A program made the translations under genes and the position numbers. Source: a bacterium (GTDB lineage Archaea; Nanoarchaeota; Nanoarchaeia; Woesearchaeales; UBA10216). Taken from it: a stretch of 7,889 nucleotides of DNA. Shown one piece after another: positions 1,187 to 7,889 of the stretch (position 1 is its first letter; each line of letters opens with the position of its first letter). Under the pieces are notes generated by a model. The model was given only the letters and a program-made list of their open reading frames with translations, was not told the origin of the DNA and made no database searches. The stretch is from the NCBI GenBank assembly GCA_024206195.1, contig JAAGZO010001039.1, positions 1-7,889 of the forward strand, read 5' to 3'.

Positions 1187-1924
1187 TTAAAATTCTTCAC
1201 GCTCTATGTACTGTGTAATGTCTTCTGCTGAGTCTTCAGAAAAGAACGTCTTATATACCTCAATAGCTTTCAAAACCTTGTTTCTGCCTCTCAGTATAGT
1301 ATCAGAAGATGGCTTAGCTATCTTAAGTTTCAATGTAGTTTTATCTATAATGTAAAACTCTACAGGTTTACCGAACAGCTGTTCATATATATATGCCTGG
1401 CTGTCGTAGTTGTAGTCGTTAGCGCTCCACTTAAAATTATCGACATTACCTGATGTTTTGATGTCAATTACTTTAGTATCTGTAACGATGTCGGCCTTAC
1501 CTTTCCATTCCATACCAAAGATAGTAGCAATAGCAGGTTTCTCGTACTCGTTACCTTCTGCATATATGTCTGTATACATTTCAAAGTTAGACTTAATAGC
1601 GTCAACCCATACGTTAATCTTGTCTACCTCTTTATTAAGTAGTACATCGTATGGATCGAGATTGTTGTCGTTGATGTATTCTTTAAAACCCTTGGTGGCT
1701 CTACTAGAAACATCCATTACATTATATTTATCTAACTTTTCTGGCTCTAACATGGCCGTATGAAAATAGCTACCCTCTAATAAGGGTAGACTTTTTTCTT
1801 TCTGTCTAAACTTTCTAGGATTTTTAAGCAAGCTATAAATATCCGAATTAGATAAGTACTTTTTTCCGTACTCGCCATAGTAATCACTATCGTTCCTGAG
1901 TTTTTCTAATATACTACTTGACAT
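1187..1924 (-). CDS. RecE-like PD-(D/E)XK exonuclease (exodeoxyribonuclease VIII-like)
   Basis: This 245 aa protein is predicted to resect double-stranded DNA ends so that the annealing protein encoded just upstream can pair the exposed strands. The PD-(D/E)XK signature is visible: Asp145 in WKGKADIV and Asp154-x-Lys156 in KVIDIKTS. The family's downstream helix motif, YDSQAYIY, has Gln176. The N-terminal LEGSYFHTAMLEPEK block (49-63, His55) is typical of the RecE-like nuclease domain. Its length suits a phage nuclease and is much shorter than E. coli RecE. The first 11 nt overlap the end of the annealing protein gene, suggesting translational coupling; AGGAG lies three bases before the ATG. 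The fold call is confident. An addiction-type Cas4/AddB-like nuclease would normally show a four-cysteine cluster, which is absent. Confidence 0.88.
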   Translation of the reverse strand: MSSSILEKLRNDSDYYGEYGKKYLSNSDIYSLLKNPRKFRQKEKSLPLLEGSYFHTAMLEPEKLDKYNVMDVSSRATKGFKEYINDNNLDPYDVLLNKEVDKINVWVDAIKSNFEMYTDIYAEGNEYEKPAIATIFGMEWKGKADIVTDTKVIDIKTSGNVDNFKWSANDYNYDSQAYIYEQLFGKPVEFYIIDKTTLKLKIAKPSSDTILRGRNKVLKAIEVYKTFFSEDSAEDITQYIEREEF

Positions 1925-2504
1925 AAGCTCCTAGTTCTTTCTTTAAAGCAGTAGGTACTACGTACTTTTGCTCAATAGTTTTTATTGTTGTTGAGAAAGG
2001 CTCACTACTCTTGCTTTTTACATAGTCAACTACACTATTCCAATTAGCGTGTGTCTTTTTTAAAGTGTCTTTCTTTTTTGCTTTTACAGCAGGAGCTGTC
2101 TCACTAACATCTACAAGATCTTCTCCCGCCCATAAAGATAAGCCTAGTCCGTGCATGGCGATAGCTTTCACCGTGCTGCGCTGAATTGTTTTGTTAACCG
2201 CAAATGAAGTTACCTTGTCTATAGATAACGATTGATTGTTATGCCCCATAATTGGCAAATAATCAATATGCTCTATTCCACTTACAGTTACCCCTACTTT
2301 TACGTATGCGGTGTTGCCATCACTAAAATAATTCAGACCTGTGTGTTCGCTTTCGTACACGGTCCTGTTTGCATCAGGATACTTGTCTTTTACTATAGCC
2401 CAGGCATATGCCCATGACAAGTAATCAAACCTTCCTTTTTTCTCTACCTTACCTTTTACATTGATTGAGGTAAGCTCTTTAAATGTTGATTTTGTGTTTC
2501 CCAT
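1914..2504 (-). CDS. Single-strand DNA annealing protein, DUF1071 (Sak-type SSAP)
   Basis: This 196 aa protein shows the DUF1071 signature along most of its length: LSWAYAW (29-35) followed by KYPDA, YLPIMGHNN (82-90), then VNKTIQRSTVKAIAMHGLGL (103-122) and WAGEDL (125-130). Proteins of this family are Rad52-like/Redbeta-like phage recombinases that coat and anneal complementary single strands. A Lys-rich linker (~141-151) connects to a C-terminal helical region (~152-196), which may bind a partner. It is followed, with an 11 nt overlap, by a RecE-like exonuclease, the expected two-component recombination pair. The start ATG lies 3 nt after the preceding stop, within an A/T leader (AAATTAAATTATG) with no Shine-Dalgarno. 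Role and family are confident; the exact subfamily is not. Confidence 0.9.
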   Translation of the reverse strand: MGNTKSTFKELTSINVKGKVEKKGRFDYLSWAYAWAIVKDKYPDANRTVYESEHTGLNYFSDGNTAYVKVGVTVSGIEHIDYLPIMGHNNQSLSIDKVTSFAVNKTIQRSTVKAIAMHGLGLSLWAGEDLVDVSETAPAVKAKKKDTLKKTHANWNSVVDYVKSKSSEPFSTTIKTIEQKYVVPTALKKELGAYVK

Positions 2505-4014: not shown

Positions 4015-4416
4015 TTATTGTGCATCTAATAGTTGTATTGTTACGTTTTCCCACTTACCCCCACGCATACTTTCGTTTACAAGGAAATCTATTCTCATAG
4101 TCCAACGCTTATTCATTCTGTCCTGTACAGTATACACTCCATTCATTTGGCCTGCACCTGTTATCATAACCTTACATCCGAACACAAACCCCAATGGCTC
4201 AAGGTCACGAGATACTGCGATCCACCTGTGTCCTGCGGGGTTGTTCGGGTTGATGTGTTTGCCACTTGCTGTAACAAATGGCGTGCTGTCTGTCTGTCCT
4301 TCTACTGCATGGTATATAGTTGCAGTTACCTGTTCCCTCATTTTGGGGAAATCAGTTCCCATTTTGGGGATTTCCATGATGAGTGTGAACAATCCTAATA
4401 TAATTACTGTCTTCAT
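4015..4416 (-). CDS. 3D-domain double-psi beta-barrel protein, secreted or membrane-anchored
   Basis: This 133 aa protein has a hydrophobic N-terminus (MKTVIILGLFTLI, 1-13) suited to a signal sequence or anchor, followed by a 3D domain (~30-131). The three conserved aspartates fall in VSRDLEPLG (Asp71), VYTVQDRM (Asp99) and MRIDFL (Asp110); PFVTASGK (46-53) and HRWIAVS (63-69) are further family blocks. The 3D domain is related to the MltA/RlpA/YocH barrels that bind or cleave peptidoglycan, and Asp110 sits where the MltA catalytic Asp lies. In a phage, a role in lysis, cell-wall remodelling or superinfection control is plausible. Its ATG overlaps the stop of a 31 aa membrane microprotein (ATGA), so the two are probably made together. 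The domain is confident; the enzymatic activity is not. Confidence 0.8.
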   Translation of the reverse strand: MKTVIILGLFTLIMEIPKMGTDFPKMREQVTATIYHAVEGQTDSTPFVTASGKHINPNNPAGHRWIAVSRDLEPLGFVFGCKVMITGAGQMNGVYTVQDRMNKRWTMRIDFLVNESMRGGKWENVTIQLLDAQ

Positions 4417-4508
4417 GATAATATGTGTTCATATATCATCAGGTATACAAGTATAAAGATAATACTTGCTATACTGATAAATCTTAATTTGTCCTTTCTG
4501 TCTCCCAT
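4413..4508 (-). CDS. 31 aa single-span membrane microprotein coupled to the 3D-domain gene
   Basis: The ORF starts at ATG 4508 and encodes MGDRKDKLRFISIASIIFIL then VYLMIYEHILS. Residues 1-9 are charged (net basic), residues 10-26 form one clear transmembrane segment, and a short tail follows. The start lies 25 nt inside the end of the Api92-like gene, with AGGA three bases upstream. The stop TGA shares the ATGA of the next start (4416-4413), the classic arrangement for translational coupling. The ORF fills the otherwise empty 67 nt gap between the two larger genes. It has no recognised family. By size and topology it could be a small membrane helper for the cell-wall-directed 3D protein (for example holin-like or spanin-like), but this is inference. 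Confidence 0.6.
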   Translation of the reverse strand: MGDRKDKLRFISIASIIFILVYLMIYEHILS

Positions 4509-5164
4509 TTCCTGTGTTTTTGTTTTAGTTTATCTACTGCTGTTCTAAAGTCCTTGTGTAAGAACTCCTCTAATATACATTCTAGGTAGTATCCTCTTTT
4601 GTAGTTTCCGTGACCGTTAGTATAGTCCTGTTTTAGAAGAGTAACAGAACCATATCCATAAAGGTTTTGTCTATCCTCGTCTAGCATATTTTCCGTGAGC
4701 TCATCCCACTTTCTGGTACTCCATTCAGGCAGATCCCACTCTATTTCTCTGTAGAAGTCTCCGTCTTCGGCTTTCCATATAGCACCATACCCCTGCTCTT
4801 CTTCCCACTCATAGTAAAAATTTGGTATGTCTTTCATAAGCATTTGAAAGATTTCTTCATTCGGAGGAGACCAAGCTGTTTGAAAGGTATAAGCACCATC
4901 CTCGTAGCTTGTCTCATAACAACCCCACTTAGTTCCCCACTCTCGATTGGCCCACGTGTACCAATCGGAAGTACCGTACTTTTCTGTTAGTCTATCATGT
5001 TCCTCCTGAGATATTGTCTCACCTATTTTTCGAGGGCTTGTTGTTCCTACTAGTTCTTCTGGCATTGGCTTGTAGTATCTACATAGCCCTACTTTAGCAA
5101 TCTCTGCTAGTTTATCGGCATACTTTTCTTCAACCGATATAAAATTGAATACGTGATTCGGCAT
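4484..5164 (-). CDS. Api92-like (DUF1281/YubB-type) ferredoxin-fold phage protein
   Basis: This 226 aa protein starts MPNHVFNFI, followed by a Pro-Met-Pro segment (YKPMPEEL, 31-38), YGTSDWYTWANREWGTKWGC (63-82) and FQTAWSPPNEEI (93-104). This order of blocks is the hallmark of the Api92-like/DUF1281 family found in phages, plasmids and integrative elements, which carries a ferredoxin-like alpha-beta fold. The biochemical role is not established. The C-terminal half (~105-226) is rich in Trp, Tyr and acidic residues and ends in a basic helix (KLKQKHRKWETERTN). The start has the A/T leader AATGTAATTATG, 15 nt after the 34 aa Cys4 ORF. The family call is confident. Confidence 0.85.
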   Translation of the reverse strand: MPNHVFNFISVEEKYADKLAEIAKVGLCRYYKPMPEELVGTTSPRKIGETISQEEHDRLTEKYGTSDWYTWANREWGTKWGCYETSYEDGAYTFQTAWSPPNEEIFQMLMKDIPNFYYEWEEEQGYGAIWKAEDGDFYREIEWDLPEWSTRKWDELTENMLDEDRQNLYGYGSVTLLKQDYTNGHGNYKRGYYLECILEEFLHKDFRTAVDKLKQKHRKWETERTN

Positions 5165-5730: not shown

Positions 5731-6750
5731 TTAAAAGTTAAATAATTCTTTTTCGTCTCCTATAATTTCTCCGTAGCATATATCACAATACAATTCATCG
5801 TAGTCTCTGACTGGCTCGGGGTTTGCACACTCACAAAACTCACCCACATGATCCCAACCCTTTACATATGAGTCGTTGTATGTTCTTGTATCCCAATCAT
5901 CAACGTATACATGTTGAGTATATGTTTTGTGGTGTATGCCTGAGTCTTCTACTGTGTCATTGAAGTATACATACGGCATGAACACATTGCCTTTCTCTGT
6001 CTGCACCTCCACACGCTTGCGCTCATACCAACGAGGGTGCCCTTCAAGTACATCAATATCAGGCAGTTGCGTCCTGTTGTCTACAAGGAACAGGTCAATC
6101 TCTACATTGTGACCAACACCTGGCTTGTTGAGTAGGTATGGTAACCCATTGATAATGAGTGGATACTTCTCTACTGTGTAGCTCTTGCCTACATATACAG
6201 CATTTGTTAGGTGTGCATGATAATTGCTGTACCCTTTCTTAAGTGTACCATACACGCCTATCAAAGTCTTGTCAAGCACATTGTTTTTACTATACTTGAT
6301 TTTGTTTCTGACAATCCAATCCTCTTTGTTGTACAGTTGAAAGGTTTTCTTTTTGAGGTTGGCTGTCACAAATCTACAGTCGCTCATCTCCAACACTTCT
6401 CTCCACCGTTTGTGCGGCACGTCTGACAGTATCTCTGCCATGTGCTGAGTGTCTGTCTTTTTCTTGTTACCAAGATTGTAAATCGTTCCATTTTGAAACA
6501 ATACCTCGTCATCATTGATGTTGAATGGATGACAGTTCTTCTTGTTCACAGCACCGACTGTTGCATACCTGAAGTGTGCAATGTATGGTCGCTGAGTCTT
6601 GAGAACCATAAAATCATTACTGTCATGATAGGTAATGTTCCACTTGTCTAACCACAGAACTCCCAACCCATGAGGGTTCTTGATTGCTGATGTCATCAAT
6701 GTTTCTGTCTTGATGAGTTTCTTGTTGTTCTTTACTATAATAATACACAT
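5731..6750 (-). CDS. Fusion of class II glutamine amidotransferase, GGCT-like cyclotransferase and Cys4 knuckle
   Basis: Three parts are visible in 339 aa. Residues 1-~148 are an Ntn-type class II amidotransferase: nucleophile Cys2 directly after Met1 (exposed by Met removal), HGLGVLW (27-33), HFRYATVG (59-66) with Arg61, CHPF (73-76), FQNGTIYN (85-92) and TDTQHMAEIL (99-108). Such domains release ammonia from glutamine. Residues ~160-280 are a gamma-glutamylcyclotransferase/AIG2-like barrel: VYGTLKKG (166-173) and DVLEGHPRWYERKRVEV (233-249), where Glu236 is the expected acid/base. This fold cleaves gamma-glutamyl-amine bonds. Residues 306-325 hold CxC...CxxC, a probable zinc knuckle. The ATG is 2 nt after the amidoligase stop (TAG-TT-ATG), so the two are co-translated and probably act in one pathway. 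The fusion architecture is unusual; domain calls are confident, substrate unknown. Confidence 0.85.
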   Translation of the reverse strand: MCIIIVKNNKKLIKTETLMTSAIKNPHGLGVLWLDKWNITYHDSNDFMVLKTQRPYIAHFRYATVGAVNKKNCHPFNINDDEVLFQNGTIYNLGNKKKTDTQHMAEILSDVPHKRWREVLEMSDCRFVTANLKKKTFQLYNKEDWIVRNKIKYSKNNVLDKTLIGVYGTLKKGYSNYHAHLTNAVYVGKSYTVEKYPLIINGLPYLLNKPGVGHNVEIDLFLVDNRTQLPDIDVLEGHPRWYERKRVEVQTEKGNVFMPYVYFNDTVEDSGIHHKTYTQHVYVDDWDTRTYNDSYVKGWDHVGEFCECANPEPVRDYDELYCDICYGEIIGDEKELFNF

Positions 6751-6752
6751 AA

Positions 6753-7889
6753 CTAATCTTCTCTTTTATCGTTAATAAATTCATCTACTAAATCGCTGAC
6801 ATCTTCTGCAATAAGATATCGTCTAAAGTCTTGTGCCACTTTGTATATGTGATTGACCTTAGCTTCATCTCCATTGTACATCTTGAGCACAATGTGTCTG
6901 ACTTTCTGCAGGAACACCTCGAATGATACTCTTCTTTCTAGTGAGTGGTGCATCATCTTATACACCAAATCATACCTGAGCTTGAGTTGTGTCGTGTTCT
7001 TCACGGCTGATGGCAATCTGAACTCTACTCTACTGCCCTTGACATTTACTGGAGAATACTTTGCGTTGTTCTCTTTCTTAGCAGGTTTGTTTTGATTACA
7101 GTAGGTACGCTTTAGTCGGTATCTGTATAGAGCATACATGAGTGCGAGTGGTTGTCGCATCTTGTCTACAATTTCATAGCCATCGTTGTAACCTTTGGCT
7201 GATACTGTAATGTGTCCACCACAACTCTTATCAACAGGACTCTCTATAATTGATTCTGCATCATCAATCCAAGTGAATACATTCTTCCTTGCATCGCTTC
7301 GTGGACTACCGAGTGGCAGTATGTTTGACACACCCTCCACTCCACATGAGCTGTCTGTCTCAAAGCCACAGAAGAAGTCATATGAACCTACATAGTCTCC
7401 TTTGTCGCTCGCCTCTTCTCCACCCTCATTGACAAAGTGTTTCTTCTCTATCTCAAAGCCAATGCTGAACACGCTGTTTTTCCAACCCTCATTGAAGTTG
7501 ATTGGGTTTTTGTTTGAATGATAAGACTTGACGCAGTCTGAGCTTGCGCTCTCTGGCATCTCATCTTCATCATAGTAGTATTCTTCATCTTCTTCAGACC
7601 AATGGCAGTCATCGGTATGTGCATAACCTTGAATGTCCTCACAATAACCACATTCGTCAGCGTCCACATAATAATCTGACGCTCGACCATACTCTACCCA
7701 ACGATAGTTATCACTTTCACAGAAGCTTTCTTGGTGACCGATTACTCCACAATACGATTCATTCTTGAAGTCCTCATAATAGAATACTTCGTCTGTAAGT
7801 TCACACATCCAAACATCATCTTCATGGTGTAGTTCTTCTGTGTCATTTGCCCTGAGGAACTCATTGTCGGCTGTGTCTTGGTCGACATA
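6753..7889 (-). CDS. Amidoligase-family (glutamine-synthetase-fold COOH-NH2 ligase) protein, 5' end beyond window
   Basis: The frame is open from the right edge to TAG/TAA at 6753, so at least 378 residues; the first in-window Met (7808) is unlikely to be the true start because 27 sense codons precede it. Numbering from that Met, ~1-95 is very acidic and Cys-rich (Cys2, 20, 30, 53, 56, 68; CGYC at 53-56), suggesting metal binding. The amidoligase core follows: FSIGFEIEKKH (114-124) with the Glu-x-Glu metal/ATP site, FETDSSCGVEGVSNILPL (149-166), CGGHITVS (196-203) and SRVEFRLP (259-266). The family makes amide bonds with ATP, typically joining a carboxylate to an amine or ammonia. One oddity is His-x-Thr in place of the usual His-x-His. 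Helices (~218-340) complete it. It is followed 2 nt later by the amidotransferase/cyclotransferase. Confidence 0.8.
   Translation of the reverse strand, partial: YVDQDTADNEFLRANDTEELHHEDDVWMCELTDEVFYYEDFKNESYCGVIGHQESFCESDNYRWVEYGRASDYYVDADECGYCEDIQGYAHTDDCHWSEEDEEYYYDEDEMPESASSDCVKSYHSNKNPINFNEGWKNSVFSIGFEIEKKHFVNEGGEEASDKGDYVGSYDFFCGFETDSSCGVEGVSNILPLGSPRSDARKNVFTWIDDAESIIESPVDKSCGGHITVSAKGYNDGYEIVDKMRQPLALMYALYRYRLKRTYCNQNKPAKKENNAKYSPVNVKGSRVEFRLPSAVKNTTQLKLRYDLVYKMMHHSLERRVSFEVFLQKVRHIVLKMYNGDEAKVNHIYKVAQDFRRYLIAEDVSDLVDEFINDKRED

Follow-up and report, generated by a model that had tools for sequence, protein, structure and literature searches.

A two-gene module of a predicted amidoligase and an amidotransferase-cyclotransferase in a phage probably infecting Flavobacteria-type bacteria

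Contig JAAGZO010001039.1 (assembly GCA_024206195.1; 7,889 nucleotides, the whole of which is referred to here as the window) carries two adjacent genes, one for a predicted glutamine synthetase (GS)-fold amidoligase and one for a class II glutamine amidotransferase (GAT-II) fused to a gamma-glutamylamine cyclotransferase (GGACT) domain of the GGCT/AIG2 kind (Table 1). Other phages have a known set of the same enzymes, of which this module is a compact form with two genes; it differs from that set in the GAT-II-GGACT fusion, in a ligase family that is invisible to Pfam and in the lack of any trace of two cassette partners among 17 fused records. The fusion gene starts 2 nt past the ligase stop codon. 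Ratios of nonsynonymous to synonymous substitution (dN/dS) against the related locus L001 are low for both genes (0.11 and 0.14); for the fusion they are 0.09 against L002 and 0.13 against L003, two comparisons in which dS of the ligase was not computable. A first-pass annotation, made from the sequence alone, had named the three enzymes, their adjacency and the fusion, and all of these are borne out, the enzyme identities by predicted folds and conserved residues. The novelty that it implied is not, the set having been published for LUZ24-like, phiEco32-like and RIO-1-like phages and for a Planctomycetes phage.

The ligase has 378 aa visible in the window, and a relative that is 85% identical has 422 aa. 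The confident structure model of a relative resembles YbdK and glutamine synthetases, and predicted structure comparison places the catalytic domain in the GS/GCS fold. Identity to YbdK, glutamine synthetase and GmaS is 10-16%, and the window ligase adds N-terminal repeats to what these enzymes have. Residues G144, E146, E148, E177, D179, S181, E185, H226, R258, E289, R291 and R305 are invariant in 99 of 101 relatives, the most distant two (P0100 and P0101) having been left out of the count. Judging from the modelled fold, the ligase would make an amide bond with ATP.

Profile libraries largely miss this family. Pfam, NCBIfam and PADLOC gave no usable match for the window ligase, and PF12224 (Amidoligase_2), which matched 7 of the 16 records searched, had no above-cut-off match in the window ligase nor in the relatives G003, G004 and W01. 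Within a 37-member alignment (A1) two proteins match PF12224 at E <=1, namely P0101, below the cut-off, and another that is inferred to be the protein of phage C75C1; the profile of the same alignment found 0 matches among PDB chains at E <=10. Profile-profile comparison (hhalign) of the ligase core with the C75C1 ligase family gave probabilities of 95.8 (140 columns) and 96.4 (172 columns), with controls at 0.1-0.4, which points to homology with Amidoligase_2 over the catalytic core. The match was weaker (74.7, 110 columns) with the ligases of 48 distant, unfused GAT-only loci, called OM43-type for short and not as a host assignment. The amidoligase call made from sequence in the first-pass annotation thus caught what profile libraries miss, and surveys of such modules that are based on Pfam are undercounts, since Pfam does not recognize the window's ligase family.

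By eye the N-terminal repeats of the ligase are LIM/zinc-ribbon-like, yet their Cys pairs are few. A domain shared at this end by the window family and the OM43-type ligases was considered and is unsupported (profile probability 9.7, 24 columns). The distant phage amidoligases L044:6611-7999 and L048:8615-10096 have CxxC zinc-ribbon-like repeats ahead of the ligase domain, those of L048 with a sub-threshold DZR match (5e-4). Two ligase matches, G005:C1:53150-53995 and G028:C1:61497-62342, contain one in-frame stop each (TGA and TAG, respectively), which may represent sequencing error, decay or recoding.

The N-terminal domain of the fusion protein resembles GlmS-like class II glutamine amidotransferases in fold and residues, with an N-terminal Cys nucleophile, an oxyanion Asn-Gly and a glutamine-binding Arg. 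Pfam profiles fall just below their cut-offs (PF13522, 25.8 of 27 bits; PF13230, 17.7 of 23 bits), and a relative that is 87% identical (P0102) has a precomputed PF13522 match; predicted fold and residues were weighed above these near misses in assigning the domain to GAT-II. Its best match among solved sequences is 3mdn, a 274-aa class II GATase-domain protein (E 3e-5). The second domain exceeds the PF06094 cut-off and has the fold and the catalytic Glu of the family. It shows 34% identity to GGACT, against 16-17% to GGCT and 11-12% to ChaC2, and shares its fold, catalytic Glu and 33-34% identity with human and mouse GGACT (A2LD1), from which it differs in sitting behind a GAT-II domain in one protein. 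Of the profile and fold checks proposed at first pass, PF06094 and the folds of both proteins therefore stood, and above-cut-off matches of the window proteins to PF12224 and PF13522 did not. Among 120 of the 697 fusion relatives the catalytic residues are kept with a single gap, at Cys2, and Cys322 and Cys325 of the putative zinc-binding tail are each aligned in 109 of the 120.

Table 1. Positions of the two genes and their predicted domains in the window
Feature	Position	Strand	Residues and basis
GS-fold amidoligase-like gene	6753..7889	-	ORF, relatives, fold; 5' end cut by window edge
GS/GCS-fold catalytic domain of ligase	6837..7493	-	Window residues ~133-351; from 176-394 of modelled relative P0001, minus 43
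Ligase N-terminal strand-rich acidic repeats	7530..7889	-	Window residues ~1-120; relatives, model
GAT-II/GGACT/four-Cys fusion gene	5731..6750	-	339 aa; ORF, profile matches, model, fold
Class II glutamine amidotransferase domain	6277..6750	-	Residues 1-158; Cys2, Arg61, Asn87-Gly88, Asp100
Gamma-glutamylamine cyclotransferase (GGACT/AIG2) domain	5896..6276	-	Residues 159-285; YGTLK 167-171, Glu236 (= GGACT Glu82)
Putative zinc-binding tail	5776..5835	-	Cys306-X-Cys308, Cys322-X2-Cys325; sequence

The ligase gene and the fusion or GAT-II gene are inherited together. Eighty of 191 confirmed loci were kept, and the fused set comprises 86 distinct loci (88 minus L063, which has no fusion and whose contig is also L083, and L084, a duplicate on the contig of L062). 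Of these, 77 have a same-strand ligase 1 to 4875 nt upstream of the fusion. The remaining 9 have less than 2 kb of contig upstream; a search of their whole records found a ligase near the other contig end in 3 (G009, G028, G029) and not in 6. Across 17 whole records with the fusion, the fusion profile matched 17 and the ligase profile 15; of the other two, G008 is a contig that stops ~2 kb away from its fusion gene, and C75C1 carries a PF12224 ligase in place of the window type. In the 48 GAT-only loci a ligase ORF is adjacent on the same strand, at -14 to +50 nt, in 45 (44 upstream; L048 downstream), and the remaining 3 have their GAT gene right at the beginning of the contig. This count was obtained with a ligase profile retrained on its own matches, although ligase-matching ORFs (E <=0.01) were already present in 38 of the 48 before iteration. 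As most fused loci belong to one phage group (Sak family in 76/86, RecE-like family in 75/86), the 77 are not independent events, and the independent weight for the pairing is carried by C75C1, the GAT-only loci (themselves interrelated), L048, LUZ24 and phiEco32. The co-occurrence of homologues, on which the first-pass annotation had staked its reading, is thus upheld in both sets of loci.

The cyclotransferase is a less constant companion. A GGCT search in 9 unfused records, consisting of MEP401 and 8 of the 48 GAT-only loci chosen on longer contigs, found the domain in 5 (L019, L020, L022, L044, L057); it was not found in the fragments L014, L016 and L034, nor in the complete circular MEP401 genome. 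Because GGCT was not found in some records that have the pair, ligase and GAT-II are the core and GGCT a frequent partner. This weakens the idea, advanced at first pass as the defining logic of the module, that the phage installs a mark and can also reverse it: it is fair to read the genes as serving amide or gamma-glutamyl chemistry, and a regulated mark is conjecture. The other two enzymes of the published cassettes, a COOH-NH2 ligase (PF14395) and an ATP-grasp protein (LUZ24 gp21), were found in 0 of the 17 fused records, some of them fragments, the ATP-grasp search in these relatives of the window phage having used one query sequence that may miss remote relatives. Each of the two matched 3 of 20 records (LUZ24, phiEco32 and L048). 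L048 is a classical enzyme set, in which GGCT, GAT and ligase are three consecutive, unfused genes.

The reading favored here, at a probability of roughly 40%, is that of a reduced two-gene amidoligase/GAT-II/GGCT module for glutamine-dependent amide synthesis, with clean-up by GGACT and an envelope peptide as target; "reduced" is a label for the two-gene state and leaves aside its direction (partner loss here or gain elsewhere). The ligase would activate a carboxylate with ATP and then form the amide; well-studied GS-fold ligases use the gamma-carboxylate of glutamate. GAT-II would hydrolyse glutamine and pass ammonia (or the gamma-glutamyl group) to the ligase reaction, which would account for ligase and GAT-II being the most constant partners. 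GGACT could split stray or protecting gamma-glutamyl-amine products into 5-oxoproline and the amine. The weakest step is the target, for which the best guess is a host envelope peptide that would be altered at an early stage of infection and is probably a precursor of peptidoglycan, by analogy with published cassettes that have the same enzymes and are interpreted as modifying peptidoglycan. Peptidoglycan is a predicted target in the available text of PMC5498523 and PMC11945000, the latter adding a second idea, that of readying the wall for lysis, and superinfection is invoked for such genes in PMC11318856 and PMC11253131. No demonstration of the substrate of the phage amidoligase/GAT/GGCT set was found in the open-licence literature; in PMC7824862 and PMC6256558 amidoligase occurs just among the references.

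Of the alternatives, the one that survives best, though it is unlikely, is a specific form of the first-pass reading, in which the ligase would attach a gamma-glutamyl group to free amines (e.g. polyamines) or to lysines of proteins and GAT-II and/or GGACT would reverse this. The closest solved folds to the ligase include gamma-glutamylmethylamide synthetase and 1-naphthylamine GS, enzymes that gamma-glutamylate amines, and the cyclotransferase domain is of the GGACT type, whose substrates are gamma-glutamyl-amines such as gamma-glutamyl-lysine. GlnA3, a further enzyme of interest here, is a GS homologue. It has been reported to glutamylate spermine (available text of PMC11841054). A writer-and-eraser scheme is kept in play by the amine type of the cyclotransferase together with the membership of all three domains in families that handle gamma-glutamyl bonds. 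However, no linked amine-handling gene was seen, and the occurrence of phages that have the ligase/GAT pair without a detected GGCT, the complete MEP401 included, speaks against a system centred on erasing. A fuller version of this scheme, in which the module is minimal and self-sufficient, the ligase adding gamma-glutamyl to an amine of the host (a lysine in a protein, an amine of a stem peptide, or a polyamine) and the bifunctional protein removing it by two chemistries as reversible tagging in a large group of Bacteroidota phages, is a good deal less probable.

Slightly more credit than to this version, although still little, is given to auxiliary nitrogen metabolism, in which shuffling of glutamine, glutamate and ammonia would feed nucleotide and amino-acid synthesis. 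The ligase/GAT/GGCT set of a Planctomycetes phage, Phage-ZRK32, was interpreted in this way, and in the presence of nitrate or ammonium phage raised the growth of another bacterium, P. stutzeri 273 (PMC10945688); but that work, in its available text, tested whole phage rather than genes, and to obtain bulk ammonia through a ligase family of its own, with an N-terminal domain added, would be odd.

It is improbable that the fusion protein serves degradation, GAT-II and GGACT cleaving gamma-glutamyl bonds (glutathione-like or of a host defence metabolite) and the ligase a different step: GGACT is a degrading enzyme by family and 3mdn is the best match of the GAT-domain profile, yet almost all loci whose flanks are long enough show ligase and GAT-II linked. 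Least probable of all is amide or amine modification of phage DNA bases or tRNA, as in other GAT-using phage pathways, for although both families include parts whose Cys-rich ends might bind nucleic acid and the module shares its gene block with primase and recombination genes, no base-hypermodification enzyme was found among the 13 Pfam families from 51 of the 67 ORFs of the 62 kb relative G003 (among the 16 ORFs outside the scan, three encode 1461-2290 aa and another 811 aa). A DNA methyltransferase family was present among the first 25 of 52 PHROGs families.

The recombination genes of the window encode a Sak annealing protein and a DUF3799 RecE-like nuclease, and the primase is BT4734-like. 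The nuclease and Sak genes (1187-2504, reverse strand) overlap by 11 nt as a compact recombination pair. The terminase of G003 matches 87 phage records, of Flavobacterium (68), Cellulophaga (15), Tenacibaculum (2), Maribacter (1) and the metagenomic MW202828, and metagenome-assembled genomes of Cytophagales and Flavobacteriales include contigs that carry two of the fused loci. A Bacteroidota host is therefore likely, and the window phage probably infects Flavobacteria-type bacteria. No named phage was matched by the window as a whole in megablast. MT497017, the one elemo record searched, has neither the ligase nor the fusion gene, suggesting that the module is accessory in the wider phage group. 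Genes for a GroEL and a GroES of their own occur in related phages of ~60 kb (G003 (L069), L064 and others with fused loci), and a GroEL-like family was recognized by eye in 58 of the 86 fused loci. Two further reverse-strand genes were noted: one for a 133-aa protein (4015-4416; phrog_21574, 2.1e-23) whose N-terminus seems to hold a hydrophobic stretch, and one for a 226-aa protein (4484-5164; phrog_12644, 9e-9) with a sub-threshold match to the Api92-like ferredoxin-fold DUF1281_C (0.007). A double-psi barrel (RlpA/3D) wall enzyme, which by eye the former resembles and which would have spoken for the wall as target, was considered and not used, as Pfam was empty to E 10 and PDB matches were at chance level (best 0.37).

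The closest published systems are those of LUZ24-, phiEco32- and RIO-1-like podoviruses, in which a "Peptidoglycan Modification Cassette" has been predicted and is said to be conserved in RIO-1, phiEco32, 7-11, PA11, tf, MR299-2, LUZ24, PaP3 and CW02 (available text of PMC5498523, citing Iyer et al. and Hardies et al. 2013); in the LUZ24-like UFV-P2, COOH-NH2_lig, Amidoligase_2, GATase_6, ATP-grasp and AIG2 proteins are encoded in one block (PMC3890496). As at the window, amidoligase, GAT-II and GGCT are encoded together in LUZ24 and phiEco32, where they lie close to a primase/helicase gene, but as separate GAT-II and GGCT genes, the phiEco32 products being gp84 for the ligase, gp83 for GAT and gp77 for GGCT; no mention of a GAT-GGCT fusion was found in the available portions of the literature on these cassettes. 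Beyond what was found in the 17 fused records, the podoviruses carry an extra PF14395 ligase and a RimK-like ATP-grasp enzyme. With three ligases (GS-fold amidoligase, COOH-NH2 ligase and ATP-grasp) the role of each enzyme in full cassettes is hard to tell, and the question is narrowed, by a widespread form that has a single ligase beside its GAT-GGACT fusion, to two proteins amenable to expression and assay.

Amidoligase and GATase genes are also reported in OM43 phages (available text of PMC10580990). Methylophilales phage MEP401 and the GAT-only loci likewise have an amidoligase directly beside a GAT-II gene, but their ligases form another branch that Pfam likewise mostly misses (PF12224 matched MEP401 and 2 of 8 of these contigs), several with clear CxxC repeats at the N-terminus, and their GGCT, where found, is separate rather than fused. 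At 39% identity across 78% of the query, phage C75C1 (OQ984151) shares with the window the GAT-II-GGACT fusion; 852 nt upstream it has an amidoligase, which in contrast to the window family is a clear PF12224 match (E 8.1e-30).
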